This document shows positions 9,017 through 42,754 of a DNA stretch of 47,954 nucleotides, piece after piece. The stretch lies in assembly GCA_016935315.1 (NCBI GenBank), contig JAFGRD010000136.1:1-47954 (forward strand), read 5' to 3'. The notes beneath the pieces are model-generated. The model was not told the DNA's origin. It did not search any database and saw only the letters and a list, made by a program, of their open reading frames with translations. This stretch comes from Pirellulales bacterium (lineage in GTDB: Bacteria; Planctomycetota; Planctomycetia; Pirellulales; Thermoguttaceae). Each line of letters opens with the position of its first letter. Within the stretch, counting starts at the first letter, position 1. A program made the translations under genes and the position numbers.

Positions 9017-9052
9017 TGGAGCTGTCCTGGCAGGCGGGCTTGGAGCAAACGC

Positions 9053-9087
9053 TGCGCGTGGGCAGGCGATGGGCCTGCCCATGTGCG
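9053..9087 (+). other. Long intercistronic hairpin between AKR paralogues 1 and 2
   Basis: TGGGCAGGC (9059-9067) and GCCTGCCCA (9073-9081) are perfect inverted arms around a 5-base loop. The pairing extends outward to 9053 and 9087 with three G-U pairs, giving about 15 base pairs. No T-run follows, so a classical terminator is unlikely. An mRNA processing or stabilising structure, or a REP-like element, fits better. Confidence 0.6.
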
Positions 9088-9131
9088 CAGAGAGGATCGC
9101 CGTGGAACCAGAACGACGGGAGGATCTGACC

Positions 9132-10235: not shown

Positions 10236-10262
10236 ACATCCAAGTAGACGAAAGGAACCGGA

Positions 10263-10940: not shown

Positions 10941-10955
10941 CACGGACTGCCTGCC

Positions 10956-11828: not shown

Positions 11829-11947
11829 GATGGTACGTTGGTTCGATGCACGGGAGCCACGCGGATCACATGCTTGCTCGCGGGGGTTTCGTGCCTTGTG
11901 TCCCGCCCGACGCGTTCTTTTGCGAGTCCCAAGAGGAGAAACCAAGC

Positions 11948-13012
11948 ATGTCGAAACCACAAGTCACGCGGCGCCAGTTCGTCCGCGATAGTGCCGGTGT
12001 GGCGGCGGCCGCGGCGGCCGGTGCCACGGTGGCCGGCATGGGGGCCGAGGCATCGGGGGCCCCGGATGCGACGAAGACCCGCAGCTACAACGAAAACATG
12101 GAGTATCGCCGCCTGGGGCGCACCAATCTGATGATCTCGGCGGTGAGCATCGGCGGACACTGGAAGAAGATTCCTCACGGCTACCGCACCCCCGACTTCA
12201 AGAAGAACCGCCGCGAGGTGCTGGCCGCTTGCATGGACCACGGCATCAACTACATCGACGCCTGCTGGGACTCCGAAGTGATTACGTATGGCGAAGCGAT
12301 CCAAGGCCGCCGCGACGACCTTTTCTTCGGATTGTCCTTCGGCGCTCATGAGAGTCGCTTTCCCGATTGGGCCCGATCCGTCAAGACGATGAAGGAGGGG
12401 TTCGAGATGGGGCTGAAGGCGGGCGGTCTGGACCATGTCGACCTGTGGCGGATCACCATGCACGAGCAGACCAGCGCCCGCAACACGCCGCAGGAGATCG
12501 AGATTGCCATCGAAGTATTGGACTGGGCGAAGAAGACGGGCAAGGCTCGTTTTACCGGCGTTTCCAGCCACGACCGCCCCTGGATCACCGAGGCGGTGGC
12601 CAGGTATCCGCAGCTCGAGGTGATCGTGACGCCCTACACGGCCAAGACCAAGGCGAAGCCGGAAGGGAGCATGTTCGACGCCCTGAAGAAGCACGACGTC
12701 GGCATGATCGGCATCAAGCCGTTTGCCAGCGGGGCCGTCTTCAAGTCGCAGGGTCAGCCCGACTCGGAAACCAAGCAGGAAGACGACGAGATCGCCCGAA
12801 TGGTCCTCCGCTACGTGCTCTGTTGCGACGTGCTCACCGCGGCCATCCCGGGCCTGATCACCATCGACCAGGTGAAGAACGCCGCGGCCGCCGTGAAGCA
12901 GCCCCGCGAGTTCACCGAGGCCGAGGCCGCACGCTACGAAGAGCTCACCAAGGACATGTGGGACCGCCTGCCCCGCGATTATGGCTGGTTGCGCGACTGG
13001 GAATGGGTCTGA
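11948..13012 (+). CDS. Tat-exported aldo/keto-reductase-fold protein (paralogue 3)
   Basis: 354 residues, a more diverged relative of paralogues 1 and 2. Tat motif in QVTRRQFVRDSAG followed by an Ala-rich segment. I chose the ATG at 11948 because AAGAGGAGAA stands 7 bases upstream; the frame is open back to 11825 but that part looks non-coding. AKR hallmarks: MEYRRLGRTNLMIS, INYIDACW, AIQGRRDD, DHVDLWRITMHEQ, GKARFTGVSSHDRP, IPGLI. The tetrad Asp is kept; Tyr and Lys are not at their usual places (FFGLS replaces the ATK strand) and His is displaced to MHE. The stop codon lies one base before the start of the ACT gene, implying translational coupling. Confidence 0.85.
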   Translation: MSKPQVTRRQFVRDSAGVAAAAAAGATVAGMGAEASGAPDATKTRSYNENMEYRRLGRTNLMISAVSIGGHWKKIPHGYRTPDFKKNRREVLAACMDHGINYIDACWDSEVITYGEAIQGRRDDLFFGLSFGAHESRFPDWARSVKTMKEGFEMGLKAGGLDHVDLWRITMHEQTSARNTPQEIEIAIEVLDWAKKTGKARFTGVSSHDRPWITEAVARYPQLEVIVTPYTAKTKAKPEGSMFDALKKHDVGMIGIKPFASGAVFKSQGQPDSETKQEDDEIARMVLRYVLCCDVLTAAIPGLITIDQVKNAAAAVKQPREFTEAEAARYEELTKDMWDRLPRDYGWLRDWEWV

Positions 13013-13013
13013 C

Positions 13014-13601
13014 ATGCCTGCACACGAACACGTCTACGTCCTCAACGTGATGTCGGACGATCACCCGGGCATCGTGGCGGCGGTCACCGGCGCGGTCGAG
13101 TCGCTCGGTGGCAATATTGACGCGTGCAGCCAGACCGTGCTGGGGGGCTACTTCACGCTGATCATGATCGTCAGCGTGCCCGAGCACATCGATCCCGACG
13201 ACTTGGCCGCGCGGGTGCGGAAGTCCGAGTCGTCGACCGCGGAGTACCAGGTGCTCGCGCGCCCAGCGTTGTCCGCCGTCCATTTCGAGCCCGCCGAATC
13301 CACCGATCGGTTCGTGATCACCGCCTTCGGCCGGGATCAGCCGGGCATTGTCCGCCGATTCAGCCAGTACCTGGCCGGCAAAGACATCAACATCGTCGAT
13401 CTCTACGGCGACCATTCCGGCGACGACTTCGTGCTCATCGGGCAGGTGGAGGTGCCCAACCGCTGGGATATCCGCATGCTGCAGGCCGATTTGGAGCAGA
13501 TGGGCGAGGAGCTCGGGTTCGCGGTGAAGCTGCAACACGAAAACGTGTTCGTTGCCACCAACCAGTTGCGGCTGACCCCATCGCCGCAAGCACGAGGCTG
13601 A
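13014..13601 (+). CDS. Two-ACT-domain protein (GcvR/UPF0237-like)
   Basis: 195 residues made of two ACT domains: the first about 5-80 (VYVLNVMSDDHPGIVAAVTGAVESLGGNI pattern), the second about 98-175 (FVITAFGRDQPGIVRRFSQYLAGKDINI pattern). Both contain the D-x-P-G-I-V ligand-binding turn typical of amino-acid-binding ACT domains. It resembles GcvR, a regulatory protein of the glycine cleavage system, and single-domain UPF0237 proteins, which are commonly encoded next to UPF0210 genes, as here (3-base gap). The ATG at 13014 follows the previous stop after one base. Likely an amino-acid sensor or partner of the next protein; ligand unknown. Confidence 0.85.
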   Translation: MPAHEHVYVLNVMSDDHPGIVAAVTGAVESLGGNIDACSQTVLGGYFTLIMIVSVPEHIDPDDLAARVRKSESSTAEYQVLARPALSAVHFEPAESTDRFVITAFGRDQPGIVRRFSQYLAGKDINIVDLYGDHSGDDFVLIGQVEVPNRWDIRMLQADLEQMGEELGFAVKLQHENVFVATNQLRLTPSPQARG

Positions 13602-13604
13602 TCT

Positions 13605-14978
13605 ATGCTGCGCACTGACGAAATCCTCTCGACCATCGAAATGCTGCACGCCGAGCACCTCGACGTGCGAACCGTGACGCTGGCACTGAACCTGGACGAC
13701 TGTGCCGCCCCAAGCGCCGACCACCTCTGCAAGAAGCTGCGCCAGAAGATTCTTTCCCGGGCGCACCGGCTGGTCGAAGTCTGCGACCGCGTGGGAGCCA
13801 AGTACGGCATCCCCGTGACCAACAAGCGCCTGGCGATCTCGCCGGCCGCCACGATCCTTGCCGGGCACGGCCGCACGGCCGCCGTGCAAGTGGCCAAGAT
13901 GCTCGATCAGGCCGCGGCCGATTGCGGCGTGGATTTCGTCGGTGGGTTCACGGCGCTGGTCCACAAGGGAATCACGCCCGCCGACGACATCGTCATCAAG
14001 TCGCTGCCCGAGGTGCTTGCCCAAACCGAGCGCGTCTGTGCCTCGGTTAACGTGGCCTCCCGCAGGGCGGGCATCAACATGGACGCCGTCCATCAGATGG
14101 GACACATCCTGATCGGCATCTCCGAGGCTACCGCCGACCGCCGGGGTTTCGGTTGTGCCAAGCTGGTCGTCTTCGCGAATATCCCCGAGGACAATCCGTT
14201 CATGGCCGGGGCCTACATGGGCTCCGGCGAGCCGGAAGCCACCGTCAACATCGGCGTCTCCGGTCCCGGCGTGGTCGGCAGCGCGCTGAAACGCCGACTG
14301 GCAAGGGACGAAAACCTCACGCTCGGCGATTTGGCGGAGGAGATCAAGATCACCAGCTTCCGCGTTACGCGCGTGGGCGAACTGATCGGGCGCGAGGTGG
14401 CCGCGGAGCTGGGGCTGGCCTTCGGCATCGTCGACCTCTCGCTGGCCCCGACGCCCGAGGTGGGCGACAGCATCGGCGAGATCCTCAAGACCTTGGGGAT
14501 CCAGCGCGTGGGGGCCCCGGGCTCGACGGCCGCAGTGGCGATGCTCAACGACGCGGTGAAGAAGGGCGGCCTGTTCGCCTCCAGCAGCGTCGGTGGCCTC
14601 AGCGGCGCGTTCATCCCCGTCAGCGAAGACGCCACGCTGGCCGATGCCGTCGGCAAGGGCCACCTGGTGCTGGAGAAGCTCGAAGCGATGACCAGCGTTT
14701 GCTCGGTCGGGCTGGACATGATCGCCATCCCCGGCGACACCCCGCCCGAAACCGTGGCCGCCATCATCGCCGACGAAATGGCCATCGGCGTGATCAACGA
14801 CAAGACGACGGCCGTCCGGCTCATCCCGGTGCCGGGGGCCAAGGCAGGCGATCTGGTCGACTTCGGCGGGCTGTTCGGCTCGATGCCGGTGATCGAGGTT
14901 CGCAACGCCGGCGCCAGCGAGCAGTTCGTCCACTTCGGCGGCCGCATTCCCGCACCGATCCAGTCGCTACGGAATTGA
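13605..14978 (+). CDS. UPF0210/DUF711 PFL-like family protein
   Basis: 457 residues, the usual length of the family. The start MLRTDEILSTIEMLHAEHLDVRTVTLALNL and blocks such as VHQMGHILIGISE, NIGVSGPGVV, ITSFRVTRVGELIGREVA, IVDLSLAPTPEVGDSIGEIL and SSSVGGLSGAFIPVSED are characteristic. Members adopt a pyruvate-formate-lyase-like barrel but no biochemical function is established to my knowledge, and I see no glycyl-radical motif. The pairing with an ACT protein is conserved in many bacteria; the linkage to Tat-exported AKRs and a cytochrome is less expected. Last gene of the forward run. Confidence 0.88.
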   Translation: MLRTDEILSTIEMLHAEHLDVRTVTLALNLDDCAAPSADHLCKKLRQKILSRAHRLVEVCDRVGAKYGIPVTNKRLAISPAATILAGHGRTAAVQVAKMLDQAAADCGVDFVGGFTALVHKGITPADDIVIKSLPEVLAQTERVCASVNVASRRAGINMDAVHQMGHILIGISEATADRRGFGCAKLVVFANIPEDNPFMAGAYMGSGEPEATVNIGVSGPGVVGSALKRRLARDENLTLGDLAEEIKITSFRVTRVGELIGREVAAELGLAFGIVDLSLAPTPEVGDSIGEILKTLGIQRVGAPGSTAAVAMLNDAVKKGGLFASSSVGGLSGAFIPVSEDATLADAVGKGHLVLEKLEAMTSVCSVGLDMIAIPGDTPPETVAAIIADEMAIGVINDKTTAVRLIPVPGAKAGDLVDFGGLFGSMPVIEVRNAGASEQFVHFGGRIPAPIQSLRN

Positions 14979-31921: not shown

Positions 31922-32167
31922 TTCAAATGACTCCATCGGGGAATTGGGCAACTTCGAGGAACACAACGGGACATTGATCTTTGCAGTTTACCGACCCCAC
32001 CCGCCGCAGACCATCCCCCTTACAGTGTGGTGTCATCGCCAGATTCGGGAAAACCGTTGCGGTCACTACATCCGGCTCAATGGGTAGCGCTTCGTCAGCC
32101 GATATCACGAGCAGGATATGTCGTGCCGGATCTTCGCCTGTCCTTCTCTTGCTTCGAGGTGCCCCCC

Positions 32168-33016
32168 GTGAGCGTCCACCCCCTGGCCTGCGTCCATCCC
32201 ACCGCTATGCTCGGCCCCGACGTCCAGATCGGCCCCTTTTGCGTGGTCGAGGCGGGTGTCACGATCGGCGACGGTTGCATCCTGGAAAACCGCGTGGTCA
32301 TCAAGCAAGGCACGACCTTGGGCAAGGAGAATCGTGTCTTCGAAGGGGTCGTGGTTGGCGGTTTGCCCCAGCACGCCCACATGCCGGAACGTCCCGGCGG
32401 CGTCCTGATCGGCTCCGGAAATACCATCCGCGAGAACGTCACGGTCCACCGCGCCATGCACGCCGGCGAGTTGACCACCATCGGCGACAACAATCTGCTG
32501 ATGGTAGCCGCCCACGTGGCCCACGACTGCCAGCTTGGCAGCAACACGATCATCACCAACAACGTGATGCTGGCGGGGCACGTCACCGTGGCCAATCGGG
32601 CGTATCTCTCCGGCGCCGTGGCCGTGCACCAGTTTTGCCGCGTCGGCACCATGGCCATGGTGGGTGGCCAGGCCCACATCAATCGCGACGTGCCCCCATA
32701 CGTCACCGTCGACGGGCTCAGCAGCCTGGTCGTCGGGCTGAACCAGGTCGGCCTGCGCAGGGCGGGCTTGGACGCGGACACGATTCGCGAACTGAAGGCC
32801 GCCTATCGGGTGATCTATCGCAGCGGCCTGACCTGGAGCGAGATGCTCAAAAGGCTGAAGGTCCGGTTCGTCGAGGGTCACGCGGCCGAGTTTTATCGGT
32901 TCTGTTCGGCGACCGAGCGCGGCATTACGCCCGAACGCCGCTTGCCGCCGGACGCCACGATCAAGCTCCGCCGCGACACCGAGCCCGAATCGCAGCCGCA
33001 AGTCAAGGTGGGGTAG
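32168..33016 (+). CDS. lpxA: Acyl-ACP--UDP-N-acetylglucosamine O-acyltransferase (LpxA)
   Basis: 282 residues. Left-handed beta-helix hexapeptide repeats (IHP/VHP-type turns, IGPF, IGDG, LGKENRV) carry the LpxA hallmarks: NTIRENVTVHRA, the catalytic histidine in AAHVAHDC, HQFCRVG, and GLNQVGLRRAG leading into the C-terminal helical domain. It adds the first 3-hydroxyacyl chain to UDP-GlcNAc, the first committed step of lipid A synthesis, in the cytoplasm. I chose the GTG at 32168: it starts at SVHPLACVHP, matching the family, with GAGGTG 6 bases upstream. The other lpx genes are not here. Confidence 0.92.
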   Translation: MSVHPLACVHPTAMLGPDVQIGPFCVVEAGVTIGDGCILENRVVIKQGTTLGKENRVFEGVVVGGLPQHAHMPERPGGVLIGSGNTIRENVTVHRAMHAGELTTIGDNNLLMVAAHVAHDCQLGSNTIITNNVMLAGHVTVANRAYLSGAVAVHQFCRVGTMAMVGGQAHINRDVPPYVTVDGLSSLVVGLNQVGLRRAGLDADTIRELKAAYRVIYRSGLTWSEMLKRLKVRFVEGHAAEFYRFCSATERGITPERRLPPDATIKLRRDTEPESQPQVKVG

Positions 33017-33043
33017 CACGGCTGCACGCTTCGGCAGCCCGTG
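33017..33043 (+). terminator. Hairpin directly after lpxA
   Basis: CACGGCTGC (33017-33025) pairs with GCAGCCCGTG (33034-33043) with one bulged C and an 8-base loop, immediately after the stop codon. No strong T-run follows, so termination efficiency is uncertain. Confidence 0.45.
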
Positions 33044-33195
33044 GATTGGCTCCACTCGATTGTGTCCAACGTTTGCGTTCGCGCTGCGCACGCGACCTCG
33101 TGCATGCCGCTTCGCACAACGTCTGTCCGCGCAAACGATACCTCTGCCCACACTCACGGACAGCCGACTTGACACCACCTGACTCGGGCAAACAC

Positions 33196-33238
33196 TTGAC
33201 ACCGCTTGGCGCAGGCGAATAATGAGTGCCAGGCACTC
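33196..33238 (+). promoter_or_regulatory. Candidate promoter with operator-like palindrome upstream of the CoA gene cluster
   Basis: TTGACA (33196-33201), a 16-base spacer and AATAAT (33218-33223) match the consensus at 6/6 and 5/6. The -10 is followed at once by GAGTGCC-A-GGCACTC (33224-33238), a perfect 7-bp inverted repeat that would cover the transcription start near 33230, a classic repressor position. CTTGACACC also occurs 27 bases upstream (33168-33176). Confidence 0.5.
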
Positions 33239-33296
33239 GTGCCTTTGTCGGTGGTTCTCCGAATACCTTCCCGCACAAAACCACCTCGACCGAGAA

Positions 33297-35390
33297 ATGA
33301 TCCACTACCGTGTATCCGACGCAGTCTGCGTGCTGCAATTGGACAGCCCGCCGCTGAACACAATCAGCCTTGCTGTGCTCGACGAGCTGGTTGCGTCAAT
33401 CGGCCGGGCGGATTCAGATGCGGTGGTGCGAGCCATCGTGTTGACCGGCGGCACGGACCATTTCAGCGCGGGCGCCGATCTGGGCATGTTTCGGGGAATC
33501 GCCTTGGTCGAGGATGCCGCCGAGATCTCGCGGCGGTTCCAGGACGCGTTCCAGGTCGTCGAGGACTGCGGCAAGCCGGTTGTCGCGGCGGTCGCCGGCC
33601 GCGTGATGGGCGGGGCACTCGAGTTGGCCATGGCCTGCCACTTCCGCGTCTGTACGGCGGAATCGACGTTCAGCTTCCCCGAAGTCAGTCTGGGCCTGAA
33701 TCCCGGGGCCGGTGCAACGCAGCGGTTGCCGAGGCTGATCGGCGTGCAAGCCGCCCTGAAGATGCTCATGACGGCCGAGACGGTCGATGCCGAGTGTGCG
33801 CTCGAGCTCGGGCTGGTCGACGCGATTTGCCCAAGCGACGATCTGATCGAAGCAGCTCGGCGCCTGGTCTCAGCGGCGCACGGGCCGGCACTCGCGCCGG
33901 CACCGCGGAGAACTGCGAAGCACGTCGAGAAGATCGAAAACGCCGCCGCCAACCGGGCCGCCTACGACGAGGCACAACAACGGCTGCAGAAGACGCGGCC
34001 GGAAATCATCGCTCCGCAGGAGATACTCGAAGCGGTTCGCTGCGGTGTGGAGGAATCCTGCCAGGCGGGCCTGCGGAAAGAGCGGGAGGCATTCGCGCGG
34101 TGCCTGAACACGCCGGCTGCACAGAACAAGATCTACTTGTTCTTCGCCACGCGTCAAACGGCCAAGGTTCCCCAGCTTGCCGACGTGCGGCCCGTCGAAA
34201 TCGGCAAAGCGGCGGTGGTCGGCATGGGCACGATGGGCACGGGCATCGTCCACGCGTTGATCGTTGCCGGCGTGCCCGTGGTCGCGTGCGACCAGAGCGA
34301 GGCGGCGCTGGCCAAGGGGCTCGACCGCATCCGAAGCTCGTTGCAGAAGCGCATCGCGCAGGGCAAGCTTTCGCCCGAGCTATCCAAGCGCATGCTGGAG
34401 TTGGTCTCGACCACGACCGACCGCGGACGGCTCGCCGGCGCCGAGTTGGTGATCGAATCGGTTTTCGAGGACGTCGGCGTGAAGCGAAGCGTGATCGGCG
34501 AAATCGAGGCGGTCTGCGGCCCGGAGCCAATCATCGCCTCGAACACGTCGACCATTTCGCTCGAGCAGTTGGCCGAGGGGATGCAGCATATCGAGCGGCT
34601 CTGTGGCATGCACTTTTTCAACCCGGCCCATCGTATGCCGCTGGTCGAGATCATCCAGGCGCCGGAAACCTCGCCCGGCGTGCTGGCCACGGGGCTGCAA
34701 TTCGCCAAACGTTTGCGGAAGACGCCGGTATTGGTCAACAACCGCGAGGGTTTCCTGGTCAATCGCATTTTCATCCCGTACCTGAAAGAGGCATTTTGGC
34801 TGCTGCAAGACGGCGCAGAGCCCGTCGCAATCGATGCGGCCGCGGTCGAGTTCGGCTTTCCCATGGGCCCGCTAGCCCTGATCGACATGGCGGGGCTCGA
34901 TATTCTGGTCCACACCGACCGCGTGCTCAGCCGTGCGTTTCCCCGCCACGGGCACGTCTCGCCCATCGCCGTGCGCCTGGTGGAGCAGGGCCACCTCGGC
35001 CAGAAGACCGGCTCGGGAGTTTACAAGTACGAGCGGGGCGATTATGCTCCACTTCAGAGCGACGTTGCCGGGCAGATTATCGCCGACGTGCAGCGCGTCG
35101 CGGGCCGCTCGCCCGGTCCACTCGACCGGGACGAGATCACGCAGCGGCTCGTCTTGCGCATGGTCAGCGAAGCGTTCTACGTGATGGAAGAGGGTGTCGT
35201 CGGGCGGGAGTCGGACCTCGACGCAGCCATGGCGCTAGGGACCGGCTTTCCGGGTTTTCGCGGCGGCCTGCTCCGCTACGCCCGCCAGTTGGGGCTCGAC
35301 ACGGTCCGCGACCGGCTGGAGGAGTTGGCCGCGCGGCTCGGGCAGCGATTTGCGCCGTGTGATCGATTGCGAGAGATGAAAGGAACTTGA
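33297..35390 (+). CDS. Fused enoyl-CoA hydratase / 3-hydroxyacyl-CoA dehydrogenase (FadB/FadJ-like)
   Basis: 697 residues, close to FadJ length. N-terminal crotonase domain (about 1-185): oxyanion-hole regions SAGADL and GRVMGGALEL, with both catalytic acids in place (E109 and E129 in FPEVSLG). A helical linker leads to an NAD-binding Rossmann fold, VVGMGTMG (G309, G311, G314), catalytic H439 in MHFFNPAHRMPLVEII, and the C-terminal HCDH domains. It hydrates an enoyl-CoA and oxidises the 3-hydroxyacyl-CoA. I chose the ATG at 33297: the ATG at 33222 falls inside the -10 element, so it could not be on that transcript. It heads the forward CoA block and overlaps the ribosome-binding region of the next gene. 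Confidence 0.92.
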   Translation: MIHYRVSDAVCVLQLDSPPLNTISLAVLDELVASIGRADSDAVVRAIVLTGGTDHFSAGADLGMFRGIALVEDAAEISRRFQDAFQVVEDCGKPVVAAVAGRVMGGALELAMACHFRVCTAESTFSFPEVSLGLNPGAGATQRLPRLIGVQAALKMLMTAETVDAECALELGLVDAICPSDDLIEAARRLVSAAHGPALAPAPRRTAKHVEKIENAAANRAAYDEAQQRLQKTRPEIIAPQEILEAVRCGVEESCQAGLRKEREAFARCLNTPAAQNKIYLFFATRQTAKVPQLADVRPVEIGKAAVVGMGTMGTGIVHALIVAGVPVVACDQSEAALAKGLDRIRSSLQKRIAQGKLSPELSKRMLELVSTTTDRGRLAGAELVIESVFEDVGVKRSVIGEIEAVCGPEPIIASNTSTISLEQLAEGMQHIERLCGMHFFNPAHRMPLVEIIQAPETSPGVLATGLQFAKRLRKTPVLVNNREGFLVNRIFIPYLKEAFWLLQDGAEPVAIDAAAVEFGFPMGPLALIDMAGLDILVHTDRVLSRAFPRHGHVSPIAVRLVEQGHLGQKTGSGVYKYERGDYAPLQSDVAGQIIADVQRVAGRSPGPLDRDEITQRLVLRMVSEAFYVMEEGVVGRESDLDAAMALGTGFPGFRGGLLRYARQLGLDTVRDRLEELAARLGQRFAPCDRLREMKGT

Positions 35391-35392
35391 AT

Positions 35393-36622
35393 ATGTCGTC
35401 CGCCACTGAACGGAGAGACTTTGAAGCGACCAAGAAGATGAAGGGCGTAATGGGGAAGTACTTCATGGAGCTGACCCAGGGTCCCCAGCAGGGCCGGAAG
35501 ACGGCCTGGTGCACCAGCGTGGGGCCGGCCGAGTTGCTTCGTGCCCTGGGGTATAACGTCTACTTTCCCGAAAACCACGGGGCGATGCTCGGTGCCACCC
35601 GCATGGCCACCGACCTGATTCCCCTGGCCAACGCCCGCGGCTTCTCGCCCGACATCTGCTCCTACCTGACCAGCGACATCGGTTCGTACCTCAAGGGCGA
35701 GAGCCCGCTGCAGAAGATGAAGATGCCCGGGCCGCCGAAGGCCGACGTCCTGGTGTTCAACACGAATCAGTGTCGCGACGTGAAGGACTGGTTCCAGTTT
35801 TACGGCCGCGAGTGGAACGTGCCCTGCGTGGGCATCCACACGCCCCGAGCGATCGGCGAGTTGGACGATTCGTTGATCGACCACGTGGCGCAGCAGACCG
35901 AGGCGCTGGTCGAGCCGTTGGAAAAGGCGGCCGGCACGAAGTTGGATATCGACAAGCTCCGCGAAACCATCGCCCTTTCCAAGCAGTGCACCGACCTATG
36001 GAAGACCGTCTTGGAGGCGGCGGCCAACGTGCCCTCGCCGCTGACCTTTTTTGACGGCACAATCCAAATGGGGCCGGCCGTCGTCTTGCGGGGCCACCAG
36101 GACGCCGTCGACTACTACCGGCTCCTGTTGGACGAGCTCAAGCAGCGTGCGGCCGACGGCGTCGCGGCGGTCGAGGGCGAGCGATTCCGCGTTTACTGGG
36201 AAGGCATGCCCATCTGGGGCAAGCTCAGCAGCCTCTCCGGCCAGTTCACCGAGCTGAGAACGTGCGTGGCGGCTTCCACCTACTGCAACAGTTGGGTGTT
36301 CGAGGCGCTCGATCCGTCCGATCCTTTCCGAAGCATGGCCCGGGCGTATTCGAGCATCTTCATCTGCCGCAGCGAGGAATTCAAGGAGCAGTACATCCAG
36401 CAGATGGTCGAGCACTTCAGAATCGACGGCATCCTCTACCACGACGCCAAGACCTGCCCGAACAACTCGAACAACCGCTACGAGATGCCGGAGCGGCTGC
36501 GGCAGAAGCTGGGCAAGCCCTACCTGGTCGTCAACGGCGACCTGAACGACCTGCGGCTCTACAGCGAGGAGCAAACCCGCACGAACATCGAGGCCTTCGT
36601 CGAGCAACTCGCGGAGGAGTAG
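35393..36622 (+). CDS. 2-hydroxyacyl-CoA dehydratase / benzoyl-CoA reductase family subunit (HgdB/BcrB-like)
   Basis: 409 residues. Matches the COG1775 fold: AWCTSVGPAELLRALGYNVYFPENHGAMLGA pattern near 38-68, FSPDICSYLTSDIGSYL (84-100), VFNTNQC, and HDAKTCPNNSNNRY near 350-363. Candidate ligands for the active [4Fe-4S] cluster are C40, C89 and C355. Members receive one low-potential electron from an ATP-driven activator and either reduce an aromatic ring or eliminate water from a 2-hydroxyacyl-CoA. Known enzymes of both groups normally have two such subunits; only one is encoded here, so it may be a homodimer. AAAGGAA overlaps the end of the previous gene. The PENHGA wording looks nearer benzoyl-CoA reductase than glutaryl enzymes, by recollection. 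Confidence 0.88.
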   Translation: MSSATERRDFEATKKMKGVMGKYFMELTQGPQQGRKTAWCTSVGPAELLRALGYNVYFPENHGAMLGATRMATDLIPLANARGFSPDICSYLTSDIGSYLKGESPLQKMKMPGPPKADVLVFNTNQCRDVKDWFQFYGREWNVPCVGIHTPRAIGELDDSLIDHVAQQTEALVEPLEKAAGTKLDIDKLRETIALSKQCTDLWKTVLEAAANVPSPLTFFDGTIQMGPAVVLRGHQDAVDYYRLLLDELKQRAADGVAAVEGERFRVYWEGMPIWGKLSSLSGQFTELRTCVAASTYCNSWVFEALDPSDPFRSMARAYSSIFICRSEEFKEQYIQQMVEHFRIDGILYHDAKTCPNNSNNRYEMPERLRQKLGKPYLVVNGDLNDLRLYSEEQTRTNIEAFVEQLAEE

Positions 36623-36634
36623 GAGCCCCAAGGG

Positions 36635-37417
36635 ATGCACTACTTCTGTGGCATAGACATCGGGGCTTCCGCGGCCAAACTGGTCCTGCTGGACGAGAAC
36701 CAACAAGTCGTCGCCCGGACAATCCACCATTCGGGCGTCGACTATGCCCAAACGGCCGACCACTGCTTGGCCGACGCGCTCTCGGCTGCGGGTGTTACGA
36801 GACAACAGATCGCCGCCTCGCTATCGACCGGCTACGGCCGCGACAACGTGCCCTGGGTCGGCGGCAAGATTACTGAAATCGCCTGCCACGGCAAGGGAGC
36901 CTTCTTTCACTTTCGCCGGGCGATCACGGTAATCGATATCGGCGCGCAGGACAGCAAGGTCATCCATCTCGACAACCGGGGCCGTCGCACGAGCTTCAAG
37001 ATGAATCGCAAGTGCGCCGCCGGCACCGGCGCCTTCCTCGAAGAGATCGCCTTGCGGCTGAACCGGCCGGTGGCCGAGTTGAACGACCTGGCCGAGCGCT
37101 CGACCAGGGAGGTGTCGCTGGGCAGCTTCTGCACGGTCTTCGCCGCCACGGAGATCCTGGCGAAGATCCGCGCGGGCGAGCAGGTCGAGGACATCGTCAA
37201 GGGAGCCTTTCGCTCGGTCGTCAAGCGGATCGTCGAAATGGATACGTTGGTGGGTGATCTGGTCATGACCGGCGGGGTGGCGGCGCATAACCGCTACCTG
37301 GCCACGCTGGCCGAAGAGGCGTTCGGGACGCATGCCCACATGCCTCCCGACCCGCAGCACGTCGGGGCATTCGGGGCCGCGCTGTTCGCGTTGGAAAGGC
37401 ATGAACAAGGAGAATAG
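36635..37417 (+). CDS. ATP-dependent activator of the dehydratase/reductase (HgdC/BcrA/BadF family)
   Basis: 260 residues. ASKHA-fold ATPase: phosphate-1 motif FCGIDIGASAAKLVLLD, phosphate-2 region VIDIGAQDSKVI, and adenosine motif VMTGGVAAHNRYL. The bridging [4Fe-4S] cluster ligands are present: C127 in NRKCAAGTGAF and C166 in GSFCTVFA, the same numbering as I recall for the glutaryl-type activator HgdC. Two ATP are hydrolysed per electron delivered to the dehydratase/reductase. The gene follows the subunit gene after 12 bases, and only one activator is present (class I benzoyl-CoA reductases have two related subunits). A good ribosome-binding site precedes the ATG. Confidence 0.93.
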   Translation: MHYFCGIDIGASAAKLVLLDENQQVVARTIHHSGVDYAQTADHCLADALSAAGVTRQQIAASLSTGYGRDNVPWVGGKITEIACHGKGAFFHFRRAITVIDIGAQDSKVIHLDNRGRRTSFKMNRKCAAGTGAFLEEIALRLNRPVAELNDLAERSTREVSLGSFCTVFAATEILAKIRAGEQVEDIVKGAFRSVVKRIVEMDTLVGDLVMTGGVAAHNRYLATLAEEAFGTHAHMPPDPQHVGAFGAALFALERHEQGE

Positions 37418-37419
37418 CC

Positions 37420-38340
37420 GTGCAGATTACCAGTCCGCCCGCGCCGCTGACCGACAACCTCTGGATGCTCGGCAGCGCCGCCTATCCGTTGTATCTGTTT
37501 CAAGACGGAAACGAAGCCGCGATTGTCGAAGGCGGCACCGGAGCCATGGGGCCGCTGCTGGCACAACAGCTTGACGACCTGGGAATCGCCCCGGAGACCG
37601 TCAACCAGGTGATCGTCACCCACGCCCATCCCGACCACGTGATGGCCGTGCCCAAGTTTCGGGAGATGTTTCCCGGCGTGAGCGTCTCGGCCTCGCAAGC
37701 GGCGGCCGGCACACTTTCCATCGAGAAGGCGCTCGCGTTCTTTGGCAAGATGGATCAGGCATTGACCGGCGCGCTGCTTAACGCCGGCGTCATCACCGAA
37801 GCCCATCGCCCCGAGCCGCTGGCCGAGAACCGGATCGCCATCGATCGCACGCTCCAGGAAGGCGACACGATCCGGATCGGGCGCGTCGAACTGGACGTAC
37901 TCGAAACGCCGGGCCACAGCGACTGCAGTCTGAGCTTCCGCCAGACCGATGCGGGCGTGCTGGTCGTCTCCGACGCCACCGGCTACTACCTGCCCGAGCA
38001 GAACGAGTGGTGGCCCAACTATTTCACCGGCTATGGGGTGTATCTGGATTCGATGCGGCGACTGGCCGAGCTGGACGCCGAGGTACTTTGCCTCAGTCAC
38101 AATGCGGCCATCCAGGGCGGCGACGCCGTGAAAGCCTATTTCGAGGCCGCCATCGCCGCGACCGAACAGTACCATCGCCGAATCATCGAGCAGACCCGAG
38201 CCGGCAAGCCGGCCCGGGAGATCGCCGAGCAGCTCGGCAGCAGAATCTACGAAAAGAAGCCGCTGCTGCCGCTGGATTTCTTCCAGAAGAACTGCGCCTT
38301 GCTGGTGAAGATATCGCTGCAACACGAAGGGATCGAGTAG
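37420..38340 (+). CDS. Metallo-beta-lactamase-fold hydrolase
   Basis: 306 residues. Metal motif THAHPDHV (H68, H70, D72, H73), further ligands in ETPGHSDC and LCLSHNA, so a dinuclear metal site is expected. It resembles the glyoxalase II/thioesterase-like and lactonase-like branch; a C-terminal helical part (about 235-306) is long for a plain hydrolase. In this cluster a CoA-thioester hydrolase, ring-opening lactonase or quality-control role is plausible. The GTG start at 37420 has AAGGAGAA 5 bases upstream and lies 2 bases after the activator stop codon, so it is co-translated. Confidence 0.85.
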   Translation: MQITSPPAPLTDNLWMLGSAAYPLYLFQDGNEAAIVEGGTGAMGPLLAQQLDDLGIAPETVNQVIVTHAHPDHVMAVPKFREMFPGVSVSASQAAAGTLSIEKALAFFGKMDQALTGALLNAGVITEAHRPEPLAENRIAIDRTLQEGDTIRIGRVELDVLETPGHSDCSLSFRQTDAGVLVVSDATGYYLPEQNEWWPNYFTGYGVYLDSMRRLAELDAEVLCLSHNAAIQGGDAVKAYFEAAIAATEQYHRRIIEQTRAGKPAREIAEQLGSRIYEKKPLLPLDFFQKNCALLVKISLQHEGIE

Positions 38341-38350
38341 GAGCCATCCG

Positions 38351-39352
38351 ATGACCCGCTCACGCATTCTGGGAACCGGCCACTATCTGCCGCCGAAGGT
38401 GGTCACCAACTTCGACGTGATGGAGATGATGGAGACCACCGACGAGTTCATCGTCGAGCGGACCGGTGTTCACCAGCGGCGCCACGCCGAGCCCGACGTC
38501 GCCGCCACCGACCTGGGCGTGGCGGCCTGCCGGGCGGCGGTCGAAGATGCCGGGCTGAGCATGGACCAGATCGATCTGCTGATTATGAACACCATCACGC
38601 CCGACCACGCCGATCCCGGCTGTGCCTTCTTCCTGCAAGGAAAGCTCGGCCTGCCCGGCATCGCGGTCATCGACATCCGCCAGCAGTGCGCCGGCTTGAT
38701 CTACGGGCTGTCGATCGCCGACCATTTCGTCCGGGCGGGCACCTATCGCCACGTGCTGATCGCGTGTGCCGAAACGCTCTCGAAGCGGATCGACGGCTCG
38801 TACGACGGCCGCAACATCGCGATCCTGTTGGGCGATGGGGCGGGGGCCGTGGTCGTGGGGCCCGCCGAAGACGACCGGCCCGGCATCCTCTCCACTCTAT
38901 TGCACGCCGACGGCAGCCAGGCCAAGGCCCTTTACACGGCCGCGCCCGGCAGCGGGCTGGGCCGCCTGGAGCACCTTACCCAGGACGACATCGACCAGGG
39001 GCGGATCCACTTCCGCATGGACGGCAAGGCCGTCTTCCAAAGCGGCGTGGCCCGAATGTCCGAGGCGGTGTTCGAGTCGCTCAAGGTCAACGGCCTTGCG
39101 CTGGAAGAGATCGACGTGCTGGTACCCCACCAGGCCAACCTGCGGATGCTCGAAGCGATTATCCAGCAGGTGGGAATTCCGCAGGAGAAGGTCTTCGTCA
39201 ACGTCGAGCACTACGGCAACATGGCTTCGGCCTGCCTGCCGATCGCGGTGGACCAGGCCCGGCGGTCCGGCGTGATCCGGCCCGGCCAGCTCGTGATGCT
39301 GGTGGCGTTCGGGTCGGGATTCGTCTGGGGCTCGGCGCTGCTGCGTATGTAA
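38351..39352 (+). CDS. 3-oxoacyl-ACP synthase III-type condensing enzyme (FabH-like)
   Basis: 333 residues. Thiolase-superfamily KAS III with the full catalytic triad: C113 in IRQQCAGLIYGL, H260 in VPHQANLRMLEAI and N290 in HYGNMASACLP. The start ILGTGHYLPPKVVTN and the DEFIVERTGVHQRR block are typical. It could extend an acyl-CoA with malonyl-ACP, act as an acyl-transfer enzyme, or carry out a CoA-dependent C-C bond reaction. Being the fifth gene of the block, 10 bases after the MBL gene, it is probably specific to the pathway and not the housekeeping FabH; that rests on context only. Confidence 0.9.
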   Translation: MTRSRILGTGHYLPPKVVTNFDVMEMMETTDEFIVERTGVHQRRHAEPDVAATDLGVAACRAAVEDAGLSMDQIDLLIMNTITPDHADPGCAFFLQGKLGLPGIAVIDIRQQCAGLIYGLSIADHFVRAGTYRHVLIACAETLSKRIDGSYDGRNIAILLGDGAGAVVVGPAEDDRPGILSTLLHADGSQAKALYTAAPGSGLGRLEHLTQDDIDQGRIHFRMDGKAVFQSGVARMSEAVFESLKVNGLALEEIDVLVPHQANLRMLEAIIQQVGIPQEKVFVNVEHYGNMASACLPIAVDQARRSGVIRPGQLVMLVAFGSGFVWGSALLRM

Positions 39353-39375
39353 CGGCGCAGGGCTTGACCATCACA

Positions 39376-40944
39376 TCATGTCTTTCCTTCCGGCTTGTCG
39401 CGGAACGCCAGGGCGAAGAACGCCAGCAGCACGAACGCGGCGCCGGACGGCCAGAGCCAGATTGGGGCCCAGTCGCACGATTGGGCCCGCAGCCAGTCCT
39501 TGCGGGTAAGCTCGGCCGCGATTTCCACTCCCTCGCGCGGCTGCTGCTTCAGGCTAGTGATCTTGTTGAACACCTTGACCATGTCCGCCCGCGAGTAGAC
39601 CAGCCCGTCCACCTCCAGCCCTGCATCGGGAATCGCCTCGACTTCGGCCGGCGTGAGCTTCCCGTCCCGGTTCGTGTCGAGTTGCTGGGCCAGATCGAGC
39701 GACGGCTTTGCTTCCTCTTCCGGCTTGCCGTAGATGAGATCGTTGACGGTGGCGTTGAGGTCCAGGTACTGCCACAGCGAGCTGGCGTCGGGATCGTCCC
39801 AGCGCGGCAGCTTGGCGTCGGCGACTGGCTTATCGTCTTCGGCATCGACGGCCGGCATGGCGGTCACCTCGGCTGGGAACCGTCCCATCATGAACCCGGC
39901 GCCCTGGGCCCCCAGGAAGTAACCCACGCCCAGCAGCAGGAATGCCAGCAGGCTCTGCGCACTCGACTTCAACTCGGCCGGCGCCCGGCGGTCCACCCAC
40001 ATGTATGCGCCGACGTAGAAGAAGCTATAGCAGGAACCATGCAGGATCAGGCCGATCAGGGCGGAAGAGAACTCGGGGCACGCGAAACACAAGTAGCGAA
40101 CAGCCCAGGCCAGCATGCCGATCATCAGCACGCGCTTCAGCCCCAGCTTGGCCACGAACCAGGGCATGCTGAACATGAAGATGATCTCAGCAAACTGGTT
40201 CAGCGACGTCAGCCCCAGCGGCGACGGGTAACCCCGCTGCTGCAACATCGGCACCATCAGCACGAAGAAGTACCCGCACGCCGGAATGCTGAACAGGAAC
40301 ACGCAGACAATGAAGACCAGGAACGACCGCTCCTTCAACAGCTTCAACGCGCTGAGGCCGAACACGTCGCCCCCGGCTTCCGCACCCTTCGGCGGCGTGT
40401 TGGGAAGGGTCAGGGCGTACAAGGCCAGGATGATGCCGCCGACCCCCCCTTGATACAGGAAGTACGGCTGTGCCGCTCCACCCAGAAAGACCTGGGCGAA
40501 CAAAACGGCCACAATCCATCCGATCGTCCCCAGCACGGCAATCCGCGGAAATCGGTCCGGGTCGGGAATGTGCCGAAACGCCACGGAATTGGCCAACGCG
40601 ATGGTCGGCATGAACGCTAAGCCGTTGAGCAACATCAGGACCATCATCGGCAGGAACGTGGTCTGGTAGCCCGCCGCGATCAGACACGCGCCGCCCAACA
40701 GGTGCAGCACGGCAAGCACCTTCTGGGCCGCAAAGAACCGGTCCGCGATCAGTCCCACGAACAACGGCGAGATAATCGCGCCGATGGCCGCCACGGCCCC
40801 CAGCCAGCCGATCTGCGACGGCTTGAAACCCACGTTGGCCGCGTAGCCGGTGATGGCCACTCCCCAACTGCCCCAGACGAAGAACTCCAAGAACATCAGC
40901 GCCGAAAGACGGGTACGCACCAGCGGGGGATGACCGGACTGCAT
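39376..40944 (-). CDS. MFS permease (nucleoside:H+ symporter-like) with EF-hand insertion
   Basis: 522 residues. About 12 membrane helices with NHS/NupG-like features (MFLEFFVWGSWGVAITGY, GLIADRFFAAQ, GTIGWIVA, GAYMWVDRRAPAELKSSAQ). Between the last two helices is a hydrophilic insertion (about 360-488) with a canonical EF-hand calcium loop, DTNRDGKLTPAE at 423-434. By alternate-helix topology that insertion should face the periplasm. GAAGGAG lies 6 bases before the ATG. It converges on the KAS III gene with a 23-base gap. Substrate unknown: the family is named for nucleosides, but the linkage to a CoA ligase suggests a carboxylic acid or aromatic compound. Confidence 0.85.
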   Translation of the reverse strand: MQSGHPPLVRTRLSALMFLEFFVWGSWGVAITGYAANVGFKPSQIGWLGAVAAIGAIISPLFVGLIADRFFAAQKVLAVLHLLGGACLIAAGYQTTFLPMMVLMLLNGLAFMPTIALANSVAFRHIPDPDRFPRIAVLGTIGWIVAVLFAQVFLGGAAQPYFLYQGGVGGIILALYALTLPNTPPKGAEAGGDVFGLSALKLLKERSFLVFIVCVFLFSIPACGYFFVLMVPMLQQRGYPSPLGLTSLNQFAEIIFMFSMPWFVAKLGLKRVLMIGMLAWAVRYLCFACPEFSSALIGLILHGSCYSFFYVGAYMWVDRRAPAELKSSAQSLLAFLLLGVGYFLGAQGAGFMMGRFPAEVTAMPAVDAEDDKPVADAKLPRWDDPDASSLWQYLDLNATVNDLIYGKPEEEAKPSLDLAQQLDTNRDGKLTPAEVEAIPDAGLEVDGLVYSRADMVKVFNKITSLKQQPREGVEIAAELTRKDWLRAQSCDWAPIWLWPSGAAFVLLAFFALAFRDKPEGKT

Positions 40945-41033
40945 CGCTTACTCCTTCACCAAGGGACGCGTGTGTCGGCGGCGCCACCTCGGCCCGGGCG
41001 GGCGACCAGCGGCGGCACATACAGGGAGCCGCG

Positions 41034-41039
41034 ATTATA
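41034..41039 (-). promoter_or_regulatory. Possible -10 element for the MFS gene
   Basis: The reverse strand has a perfect TATAAT here, about 90 bases upstream of the MFS start. The -35 region at 17 bases (TTTCGC) is a poor match. Together with the hairpin just upstream it suggests the permease can be transcribed separately from the ligase. Confidence 0.3.
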
Positions 41040-41048
41040 AGCCATAGC

Positions 41049-41095
41049 GCCGGACGGCGAAAGCCCCCGAGAGCCACCCGCCTTTCGCCGCCGGC
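41049..41095 (-). terminator. Long hairpin downstream of the CoA-ligase gene
   Basis: GCCGGACGGCGAAAG (41049-41063) pairs with CTTTCGCCGCCGGC (41082-41095) with one bulged base and an 18-base loop: about 14 pairs. It lies 22 bases after the ligase stop. No T-run follows, so it may be a Rho-type or processing structure. Confidence 0.5.
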
Positions 41096-41117
41096 AAGGT
41101 TGCCCTGGTTTGCCCCG

Positions 41118-42689
41118 TCAGGCCAACGGCTCGGACGCCGCCATCTCGCGGAGCTTGTACCGTTTGATCTTGCCCGTGGCCGTCTTGGGCAAGTCCTCGA
41201 CGAAGACCACCGACCGTGGGTACTTGTGCGGGGCCGTGTGCTTCCTGACGAAATCCTGCAGCTCGCGAGCCAGCTCCGGCGAGCCGTGGTGCCCGTCCTT
41301 CAGCACCACGTACGCCCGGGGCTTGATCAGCCCGTCCCGGTCGGCCGTGCCCACCACGCCGCTTTCCAGCACGGCGGGGTGCTGCTGCAGAAGGCCTTCC
41401 ACGTCGGCCGGCCAGACCGCCTGGCCGCTGACCTTCATCATGTCGTCGGTGCGGCCGGCATACCAGTAGTAGCCGTCTTCGTCGACCAGGAACTTGTCGT
41501 GCGTGTTGATCCATTCGCCGCAGAAGGTCCGCTTGGTCTGCTCGTGCTTGTTCCAATAGCCGTCGGCGATGCTGTCGCCCTTGATCATCAACGTGCCCAC
41601 CTGGCGCGGCGGCAGCTCGTGGCCGTCGTCGTCGACGATTCTGGCCTCGTAGCCAGGCACGACCTGTCCGGTGCTTCCCGCGCGGGCCTTGCCGGGGCGG
41701 TTCGAGATGAAGATGTGTAGAATCTCCGTCGAGCCGATGCCGTCGAGAATCTCCACACCAAAACGCTCCAGCCATTTCTCGTAAAGATGCTTCGGCAACG
41801 GCTCCCCGGCCGAGACGCACATCCGCACCCGGCCCAGGCTCGTGCGGCCGGTCTTTTCGGCCAAGTGCAGCGTGGCAGCGTAGCTGGTCGGTACGCTGTA
41901 GAAGACGGTCGGCTGATACTTGTCGACCACGTCGAACACGGCGTCGGGCGTGGGCCGGCCGGGCAACAGGATCGTGGTGCCGCCCGTGCGCAACGGAAAG
42001 TACAGCCCGTTGCCCAAGCCGTAGGCGAAGAACAGCTTGGCCACCGAGAACGATACGTCCGACTCCCTCAGCTCGATCGTCCGCTTGGCATACAGATCGG
42101 CTTCCACAATCATGTCGTGATGCAGGTGGATGGCCCCCTTGGGGAAACCGGTCGTGCCCGAACTGTAGAGCCAGAACGCCGCGTCGTCCTTGCTCGTGTC
42201 GACCGCCGCCAACGACGGCGAGGCGTCCTGCACAACGCGATCAAAGTTCAGACAGCCCTCGGCCTGCCCGCCGACCACGATGACGTGCTCCAGGTATCTC
42301 AACTCCTCGCGGACGGCCGTGATCCGCTCGAGCATCGACTCATGGACCACCAGCACCCGCGCCCGGCTGTCGCTGAGCAGATACTCGTAGTCCTTCGGCG
42401 ACAGAATCGTGTTCATCGGCACGGCCACGGCGCCGATTTTCATGGCCCCGAAGAAAGCGAACACCCACTCGGGCCCATCGGGCAGCAGAATGGCCACGCG
42501 CTGTTCCATGCGAATGCCCAGGCCCCGAAGCGCGTTGCCCAGGCGGTTCACCCCCTCTTGAAGCTCGCGATACGTGACGGTGTCTTCACCGCAAAGGATG
42601 GCCGGCTTCTCGCCGTGCCCCTTGCTCACGTTTGCGTCGACCAGCACTGCCGCCGCGTTGAGTCGTTCCGGAAGTTCCAAGGCCGGCAT
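41118..42689 (-). CDS. Benzoate-CoA-ligase family acyl-CoA synthetase
   Basis: 523 residues, ANL superfamily. P-loop YSSGTTGFPKG (175-185), A5 region LDGIGSTEILHIFISN, hinge region YWYAGRTDDMMKVSGQAVWP, and catalytic lysine K507 in LPKTATGKIKRYKLRE. The GSTEILHIF and TGQVVPGYEARIVDDDG wording is typical of the benzoate/4-hydroxybenzoate-CoA ligase family. It forms acyl-AMP then acyl-CoA, probably from an aromatic acid. I chose the ATG at 42689: GAAGGAG lies 9 bases upstream and the in-frame extension to 42731 adds nothing family-like. With the forward block it can supply the CoA thioester that the radical reductase needs. Confidence 0.9.
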   Translation of the reverse strand: MPALELPERLNAAAVLVDANVSKGHGEKPAILCGEDTVTYRELQEGVNRLGNALRGLGIRMEQRVAILLPDGPEWVFAFFGAMKIGAVAVPMNTILSPKDYEYLLSDSRARVLVVHESMLERITAVREELRYLEHVIVVGGQAEGCLNFDRVVQDASPSLAAVDTSKDDAAFWLYSSGTTGFPKGAIHLHHDMIVEADLYAKRTIELRESDVSFSVAKLFFAYGLGNGLYFPLRTGGTTILLPGRPTPDAVFDVVDKYQPTVFYSVPTSYAATLHLAEKTGRTSLGRVRMCVSAGEPLPKHLYEKWLERFGVEILDGIGSTEILHIFISNRPGKARAGSTGQVVPGYEARIVDDDGHELPPRQVGTLMIKGDSIADGYWNKHEQTKRTFCGEWINTHDKFLVDEDGYYWYAGRTDDMMKVSGQAVWPADVEGLLQQHPAVLESGVVGTADRDGLIKPRAYVVLKDGHHGSPELARELQDFVRKHTAPHKYPRSVVFVEDLPKTATGKIKRYKLREMAASEPLA

Positions 42690-42754
42690 CTCCAGGTACT
42701 CCTTCGCAGGTTTCAGGCACGCAGGGCCCATTCTAATCCGCCCCTAAGACCCGG

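Follow-up and report, generated by a model that had tools for sequence, protein, structure and literature searches.

A conserved six-gene cluster around a HadB-like protein in a Pirellulales bacterium: a possible anaerobic module for aryl-CoA side chains

We analyzed a window of 47,954 nucleotides from a Pirellulales bacterium (contig JAFGRD010000136.1, positions 1 to 47,954; in our set C14:1-47954 of genome G000, an assembly of 7.1 Mb in 172 contigs that is 95% complete) and found that six of its genes almost certainly form a genuine conserved unit. They encode a FadJ-type fusion enzyme (FadJ), a HadB-type 2-hydroxyacyl-CoA dehydratase subunit (HGD), its activase (ACT), a metallo-hydrolase (MBL), a KAS III enzyme (KAS) and a ligase of the benzoate-CoA ligase family (LIG). 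By sequence and modeled fold, HGD is nearer to HadB, the substrate-binding subunit of (R)-2-hydroxyisocaproyl-CoA dehydratase, than to the benzoyl-CoA reductases (BCRs). We tentatively propose, with confidence a little short of even, that the cluster is a conserved anaerobic C6-C3/C6-C1 aryl-CoA side-chain module in which a HadB-type radical enzyme works with β-oxidation-like partners.

Seven open reading frames (ORFs), all intact, form two facing blocks that span 33222-42731, and their families are those named in the first-pass annotation:

33222..35390, + strand: FadJ-type enoyl-CoA hydratase / 3-hydroxyacyl-CoA dehydrogenase fusion, likely start ATG 33297
35387..36622, + strand: HGD, single HadB-type 2-hydroxyacyl-CoA dehydratase subunit, likely start ATG 35393
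36635..37417, + strand: ACT, ATP-dependent acyl-CoA dehydratase activase (TIGR00241)
37420..38340, + strand: MBL metallo-hydrolase, nearest solved relative PqsE (2-aminobenzoylacetyl-CoA thioesterase)
38351..39352, + strand: KAS III (profile match), a FabH-type enzyme additional to the housekeeping one, grouping with PqsD in a tree
39376..40944, - strand: MFS transporter, Nuc_H_symport (profile match), outside the conserved unit
41118..42731, - strand: LIG, benzoate-CoA ligase family enzyme (TIGR02262)

The likely start codons of FadJ and HGD were chosen by comparison with orthologues, and the catalytic motifs are kept in the commonest orthologue variants (six per motif compared).

Conserved linkage and co-occurrence

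A pattern scan of genome contigs with the window HGD yielded 62 loci. Forty of them (clade 1: L002-L035, L040, L056, L058, L061-L063) carry an HGD that is 69-83% identical to that of the window, and their titles are mostly Planctomycetota and Verrucomicrobia, together with L033 (Fibrobacterota), L004 (Nealsonbacteria) and L022 (uncultured). The other 22 (clade 2, 57-67% identity) come from Acidobacteria, Proteobacteria, Desulfobacterales, Bacteroidetes, Thermoplasmata, Lokiarchaeota and others, including one planctomycete (L052). The window HGD is nearest to Planctomycetota copies, including those of Pirellulaceae and Planctomycetaceae. A tree of 37 HGD sequences, drawn from the window and from 36 of the 62 loci, unites 21 clade-1 rows in a single group (support 97/99). 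The clade-1 copies in the records titled Chitinispirillaceae (L033) and Nealsonbacteria (L004) reflect either misbinning or transfer.

FadJ, HGD, ACT, MBL and KAS follow each other on one strand and in the same order in 15 of the 40 clade-1 loci, many others ending at contig edges, and this collinear order occurs in both Planctomycetota and Verrucomicrobiota. A locus was counted as assessable if the gene was present or the contig long enough, a rule that favours hits, and identity limits of 45% (FadJ and MBL), 55% (ACT) and 60% (KAS and LIG) were applied. On this basis orthologues are linked to HGD in 26/35 assessable clade-1 loci for FadJ, 34/37 for ACT, 27/36 for MBL, 19/33 for KAS and 17/27 for LIG. 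The linkage of the first five genes is far above chance, which bears out the earlier proposal of a CoA-dependent cluster with conserved linkage. In Planctomycetota (e.g. L013, L058), as well as Verrucomicrobia L015, LIG stands after KAS and converges with it; in L022, L027, L028, L032 and L063 it opens the cluster and runs in the same direction.

Co-occurrence points the same way, although the genomes compared are related and the counts are not independent. Among 60 related genomes, HGD is present at 71% identity or more in ten (G000 counted), with three more having only 26-34% matches; MBL (E<=1e-20) occurs in exactly the same ten, and LIG (at least 69%, E<=1e-100) in these ten and in G022. 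KAS is found at 73% or more in seven of the ten; the other 50 have no such copy, their matches at E<=1e-60 showing 35-40% identity. Among the 29 clade-1 genomes reached through the loci, 27 contain LIG (26 at 69% or more, one at 58%), even if unlinked, and 20 contain KAS at 67% or more, often on another contig. The first-pass annotation had held that relatives keeping each gene without the linkage would speak against a cluster; this pattern is seen in part, in that LIG is often unlinked yet present in nearly all of these genomes. A sample of 392 genomes from the phylum contains 17 with an HGD at E<=1e-120; in four of these, including G000, it is more than 70% identical, and in the rest 48-63%.

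The same annotation had credited the cluster with its own permease. This claim did not hold: no tblastn match (E<=1e-5) to the MFS protein was found in 77 loci, many of which are short, L001 stopping before the window's own copy. Because of this result the permease was ruled out as a member, and the conserved unit comprises six genes and not seven. Its C-terminal part contains an EF-hand-like stretch (DTNRDGKLTPAE), read by eye. If all the genes were merely neighbors without a common pathway, such a chance neighbor would be expected, as would the lack of KAS or MBL near HGD in several clade-1 loci; gene order kept across two phyla and presence and absence matched in 60 relatives are not. We regard this explanation as refuted by the linkage and co-occurrence counts.

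HGD resembles the substrate-binding subunit of a dehydratase

HGD had been described as a benzoyl-CoA-reductase/2-hydroxyacyl-CoA-dehydratase subunit. The family stands (PF06050, 230 bits), and the assignment can now be sharpened to the HadB side, away from the reductases. HadB is the best match in the PDB with 236 bits, compared to 160 for MbdO, 121 for BzdO and 41 for the double-cubane cluster protein (DCCP). Foldseek ranks HadB (3o3m_A) first for an AlphaFold2 model of HGD (predicted local distance difference test score 88.7), with a template modeling (TM) score of 0.90 and a root mean square deviation of 2.0; TM scores are 0.84-0.87 for MbdO/BzdO, 0.75-0.77 for DCCP and 0.69-0.70 for HadC. 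All four specific profiles stay under their cut-offs: the NCBIfam HadB equivalog (222 of 750 bits), BcrB (144.8 of 486.55), BzdO (88.4 of 448.6) and the double-cubane cluster protein NF040772 (62.4 of 350).

Ser-44 and Glu-62 of HGD, equivalent to Ser-37 and Glu-55 of HadB, which we take to be functional residues, are invariant in the 37 aligned sequences. The same holds for Cys-42 and Cys-300, and for Cys-91, Cys-129 and Cys-357, which align with the cysteine ligands of the catalytic [4Fe-4S] cluster in HadB, MbdO and BzdO, given for BzdO as Cys95/128/380 in the available text of PMC11971306. That text also offers an overview of the dehydratase and BCR family and describes the homodimeric DCCP. 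We predict dehydratase chemistry for HGD as fairly probable.

A BCR-type dearomatizing route for benzoate would make use of the benzoate-type ligase and agree with an activase whose best match is MbdQ, 1 bit above HgdC, with the HGD-D fold common to MbdO/BzdO and with the serine of BzdO at the HadB Ser-37 position. Against it stand the BCR scores far below cut-offs (145 of 487; 88 of 449 bits) and the single HGD-D gene found in G000. It would also lack a continuation there, the benzoyl-CoA ring-cleavage hydrolase Oah (TIGR03200) being over cut-off in one of 26 clade-1 genomes and not in G000. We disfavor such a route as very improbable.

One gene or two subunits

Known dehydratases and class I reductases carry two HGD-D subunits. 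In G000, at 95% completeness, no second HGD-D gene was found beside the single PF06050 gene, and 13 of the 29 clade-1 genomes have one over-cut-off PF06050 gene. Since the two-subunit feature was looked for and not found, we did not file HGD as a canonical dehydratase. Four clade-2 loci have, near the intact HGD, a PanE-type reductase fused to an additional, related HGD domain that shares 39-41% identity with the window HGD; the assignment was confirmed with hidden Markov models (HMMs) on L045:

L045:806-3109, PanE-HGD fusion
L051:4784-7114, PanE-HGD fusion
L054:6897-9173, PanE-HGD fusion
L055:6698-9196, PanE-HGD fusion

In these domains the equivalent of Cys-129 is lost in all four cases and those of Cys-91 and Cys-357 in three of four each; in the HGD tree they form one group on a long branch. 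A partner paralogue that largely lacks the cluster suggests that HGD ancestrally paired with another copy of itself and thus formed a homodimer.

Two candidates for a second subunit were rejected. A protein of ~315 residues in distant loci is a PanE/ApbA reductase according to its sequence and to HMMs on L041, L045 and L049; it had initially clustered with HGD because the PanE-HGD fusions bridged the clusters. The ORF at 31981-33222 on the + strand, whose Arg/Pro-rich translation has no family match, was ruled out because the actual gene there is the following:

32027-33016, + strand: LpxA-like acyltransferase gene, upstream of the cluster

The partner enzymes and the proposed steps

FadJ consists of the Pfam domains ECH_1, 3HCDH_N and 3HCDH, scores 537 bits with the NCBIfam FadJ profile (below the equivalog cut-off of 869 bits) and has AtMFP2 (2wtb) as its nearest solved structure; both crotonase glutamates are present and kept in the compared orthologues. 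ACT clearly exceeds the TIGR00241 cut-off (213 vs. 125.4 bits), its solved relatives being MbdQ (179 bits), HgdC (178) and HadI (172), and the activase motif NRKCAAGTG with the cluster cysteine occurs in 51 of 51 aligned sequences. In the ACT structure search, 23 of 28 rows were matches to TAL-effector repeats, which were treated as chance and dropped. The HxHxDH metal site of MBL is found in 28/28 aligned sequences, and the nearest characterized relative is PqsE, at low absolute similarity (71 bits vs. 45 for the next other entry).

KAS has the Cys-His-Asn triad, kept in the compared orthologues, and shares 47% identity with PqsD and 42% with E. coli FabH. In a tree, 20 KAS rows group at 100/98 with PqsD, represented by a single sequence on a long branch, while E. 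coli FabH and 12 FabH-like rows stand outside the group. Because G000 has another FabH at C105 (37% identical to the window KAS), KAS is not the housekeeping enzyme. LIG scores 619 bits with TIGR02262 (cut-off 375) and matches solved anthranilate-CoA ligase (4wv3, 492 bits) and benzoate-CoA ligase (2v7b, 490 bits). Its motifs AYGLGN, SAGE and GSTExLHIF are of the benzoate type wherever the two kinds of ligase differ, and with small variants they are found in 18/18 aligned sequences.

At the level of sequence, these assignments lend support to the chemistry predicted at first reading, i.e. CoA activation, ATP-driven radical chemistry, hydration and oxidation, and a C-C bond step. We propose that the steps would take place in the following order and direction. 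LIG, or an ADP-forming acyl-CoA synthetase in other lineages, would load CoA onto an aromatic acid, presumably an aryllactate derived from aromatic amino acids. ACT would activate HGD with ATP and one low-potential electron, and HGD, without the usual second subunit and probably as a homodimer, would perform the radical α,β-dehydration of an (R)-2-hydroxyacyl-CoA, most likely of (R)-3-aryllactyl-CoA to cinnamoyl-CoA. FadJ would hydrate and oxidize the latter to aroylacetyl-CoA, KAS III (a thiolase in some loci) would work on the C-C bond between aroylacetyl-CoA and aroyl-CoA, and MBL may be a thioesterase releasing an acid.

Substrate clues from neighboring genes

Genes for 2-hydroxyacid enzymes surround HGD in several lineages. 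Clustering and inspection of the sequences place a PanE-type reductase in 16 of the 22 clade-2 loci, and HMMs confirm it in L041, L045 and L049. In L036, Ldh_2, the racemase LarA and a class III CoA-transferase lie near HGD, the latter two also in L037, L038 and L057 by clustering. GlcD- and GlcF-like genes directly precede or follow the cluster in Verrucomicrobia L028 and L027, with scores under cut-off in L028 (GlcD 458 of 568 bits, GlcF 290 of 333).

Genes of benzoyl-CoA metabolism lie within ~9 kb of HGD in five clade-2 loci. These are BcrA (790 bits, cut-off 578) and the 4-hydroxybenzoyl-CoA reductase alpha subunit (1297, cut-off 995) in L041; Had (432, cut-off 339), a fragment of Oah (216 of 464) and Dch (243 of 293) in L049; BcrB (687, cut-off 487) in L051; BzdO (373 of 449, truncated at the contig end) in L047; and Had (441, cut-off 339) in L045.

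A further clue is the exchange of the CoA-loading enzyme. The genome of L026 lacks LIG; at this locus, as in clade 2, HGD-ACT is followed by a member of the ADP-forming acyl-CoA synthetase cluster, whose family was verified with an HMM on L043. A strict alternation of the two enzymes is only partly borne out, since it fits L026 but neither L033, with no LIG in the genome and no visible ADP-forming synthetase at the locus, nor L009, where both are present (LIG at 58%). We also observed a compact module of activase, HGD, ADP-forming acyl-CoA synthetase and PanE in bacteria and archaea (L041, L043, L046, L047, L049; PanE is not in the L043 module); those of L041, L047 and L049 are within ~9 kb of the benzoyl-CoA pathway genes.

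Because of the 2-hydroxyacid neighbors, the aromatic-CoA neighbors, the benzoate-type ligase and the synthetase exchange taken together, the best-fitting, though unproven, HGD substrate is an aryllactate, an aromatic 2-hydroxyacid, and we predict that the module as a whole is likely to act on an aromatic compound. Alternatively, it could act on an aliphatic 2-hydroxyacid (lactate, 2-hydroxyglutarate or a branched chain) in the fermentation of amino acids or deoxysugars. HadB, the top-scoring characterized relative, does use 2-hydroxyisocaproyl-CoA, and the GlcD/GlcF-like, LarA, Ldh_2 and PanE proteins are 2-hydroxyacid enzymes without aromatic bias. Such a role would leave unexplained why LIG is far above the benzoate-ligase family cut-off with benzoate-type motifs in every aligned sequence, why KAS groups with PqsD and why clade-2 HGDs in different phyla lie close to benzoyl-CoA genes. 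We therefore consider an aliphatic substrate unlikely.

Direction of the pathway

The first reading had left the choice between catabolism of an aromatic acid and biosynthesis. Catabolism of the ring appears unlikely for the window cluster because Oah was not found in G000. In addition to the one over-cut-off Oah in the 26 clade-1 genomes, one more has a weak match (86 bits), and of 17 clade-2 genomes nine have Oah over cut-off, five a weaker or partial match and three none; weak matches, which also appear in 5 of 14 control genomes, were left uncounted. This distribution indicates that the clade-2 organisms are able to channel benzoyl-CoA into reduction of the ring; for clade 1, aroyl-CoA or aroate is more likely an end or starting point.

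The alternative is synthesis in the manner of the Pseudomonas quinolones. LIG would form aroyl-CoA, KAS would extend it with malonyl-CoA to aroylacetyl-CoA and FadJ, running in reverse, would give a 3-hydroxy acid or cinnamoyl-CoA, which HGD would hydrate or further reduce before MBL frees a small aromatic product. The best solved matches of LIG, KAS and MBL are anthranilate-/benzoate-CoA ligase, PqsD and PqsE, and KAS and PqsD group together, apart from the FabH-like sequences. The PqsD-like KAS and the PqsE-like MBL thus point to aroyl-CoA/aroylacetyl-CoA chemistry and, considered by themselves, to synthesis. With no Oah found in G000, an ATP-spending benzoate ligase would also need another purpose.

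Synthesis is weakened by FadJ and by a thiolase-family gene near HGD-ACT-MBL in L009, L020 and L034 (HMM on L020, the others by clustering), both typical of β-oxidation. The corresponding genomes (G063, G068, G081) have no KAS of the window type, and the same thiolase cluster lies near HGD in clade-2 L048, L054, L055 and L059. A protein of 695-696 residues beside the thiolase in L009 and L020 (693 in L034) was first labeled a dehydrogenase on weak FadJ similarity; we withdrew this label, since neither Pfam at 1e-8 nor NCBIfam at 1e-20 gave a match for the L020 copy. Moreover, the characterized dehydratases run toward the enoyl-CoA, as far as the available text of PMC11971306 covers them. A bypass from benzoate to phenylalanine, considered as a possible product route, is not needed, since 35 of 40 genomes, G000 among them, have prephenate dehydratase (PheA), the exceptions being G015, G079, G086, G089 and G098. 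Overall we slightly prefer side-chain breakdown, and we regard the quinolone-like synthesis as rather unlikely.

Several observations weigh against the aryl-CoA side-chain module as proposed. Regarding the C-C step, condensation by a KAS III is normally decarboxylating, in better agreement with synthesis; KAS is missing genome-wide in 9 of the 29 clade-1 genomes, KAS and MBL are lacking near HGD in the loci mentioned above, and PqsD sits on a long branch in the KAS tree. The top solved match of LIG is the anthranilate ligase, by 2 bits, and Oah is scarce in clade 1. The substrate clues are indirect as well: the PanE, LarA and GlcDEF neighbors are lineage-specific with none in the window, and the benzoyl-CoA neighbors are confined to the more distant clade 2. 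As for HGD, 16 of the 29 clade-1 genomes have further HGD-D genes, so that a partner elsewhere is possible there. Finally, the HadB serine position, absent in MbdO and present in BzdO, with the glutamate in both, is not diagnostic; because BzdO has the serine too, it does not exclude a reductase, and we lowered our estimate for dehydratase chemistry slightly for this reason.

Other genes in and around the loci

In 11 clade-1 loci (L005, L013, L020, L023, L025, L026, L031, L033, L056, L058, L061), the cluster is immediately preceded by the gene for a zinc-type MDR dehydrogenase of ~322 residues, whose family match was verified on L020. In three Verrucomicrobia loci a small hotdog-type thioesterase follows KAS (4HBT_2 match on the L030 copy; ~2 kb beyond KAS in L029):

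L024:15542-15952, hotdog-type thioesterase
L029:17561-17992, hotdog-type thioesterase
L030:14982-15464, hotdog-type thioesterase

In the window, PQQ/β-propeller and MoeA genes lie downstream of the cluster. At 7835-14978, three aldo/keto reductase genes stand on one strand with cytochrome c3-like, ferredoxin-like, ACT-domain and DUF711 genes, possibly a redox cluster.

Significance and comparison with known systems

A literature search, with most subscription journals outside its reach, found no account of the cluster, and no paper on a 2-hydroxyacyl-CoA dehydratase in Planctomycetes or as a single subunit was found in the literature searched. In its boldest form, our proposal is that a one-gene (homodimeric) 2-hydroxyacyl-CoA dehydratase family of bacteria and archaea opens an anaerobic route, hitherto merely postulated, from aromatic amino acids (aryllactates) via cinnamoyl-CoA and aroylacetyl-CoA to benzoyl-CoA, with a PqsD-type KAS III in the thiolase's place in planctomycetes and verrucomicrobia. 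We regard this version as doubtful. If it is true, the route from aromatic amino acids or aryllactates to benzoyl-CoA would be widespread and uncharacterized, a radical dehydratase would need no second cluster subunit, which bears on the path of the ATP-driven electron to the substrate, and planctomycetes and verrucomicrobia would gain a defined, testable aromatic metabolism. Many cluster-bearing records come from samples that, judging by their names, we presume to be anoxic lakes, sediments and digesters. Why would a KAS III of the decarboxylating type be used where a thiolase is expected?

The HadBC and FldBC dehydratases share with the window cluster the HadB fold, the three cluster cysteines, the equivalents of Ser-37 and Glu-55 and an adjoining dedicated ATP-dependent activase. 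They differ in having a second HGD-D subunit, for which no gene was found in G000, while the window HGD has Cys-42 and Cys-300, two extra cysteines invariant in the 37 aligned sequences, and is paired with FadJ, KAS III and a benzoate-type ligase. The class I BCRs (Bcr, Bzd, Mbd) belong to the same superfamily with the same type of activase, and clade-2 HGDs are found within ~9 kb of bcr/bzd genes (L041, L047, L051). In contrast to them, the window has one HGD-D gene with under-cut-off scores and no Oah was found in G000; they have two ATPase subunits, compared to one activase gene as counted within the window cluster.

PqsA-PqsD-PqsE of the Pseudomonas quinolone system resembles the cluster in its aroyl-CoA ligase (4wv3 being the best solved match of LIG), in the KAS III that groups with PqsD and in the PqsE-like MBL, but the LIG motifs are benzoate-type where the ligases differ, and we know of no counterpart of FadJ, HGD and ACT in that system. 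A parallel in terms of reactions is a hypothesis for a benzene degrader, in which phenylpyruvate is converted through phenyllactyl-CoA (2-hydroxy-3-phenylpropanoyl-CoA), cinnamoyl-CoA and 3-oxo-3-phenylpropanoyl-CoA to benzoyl-CoA (PMC13416013). On paper the steps are identical to ours. In the available text of that work the dehydratase is unassigned, whereas the window offers a conserved cluster with enzyme types that match these steps.

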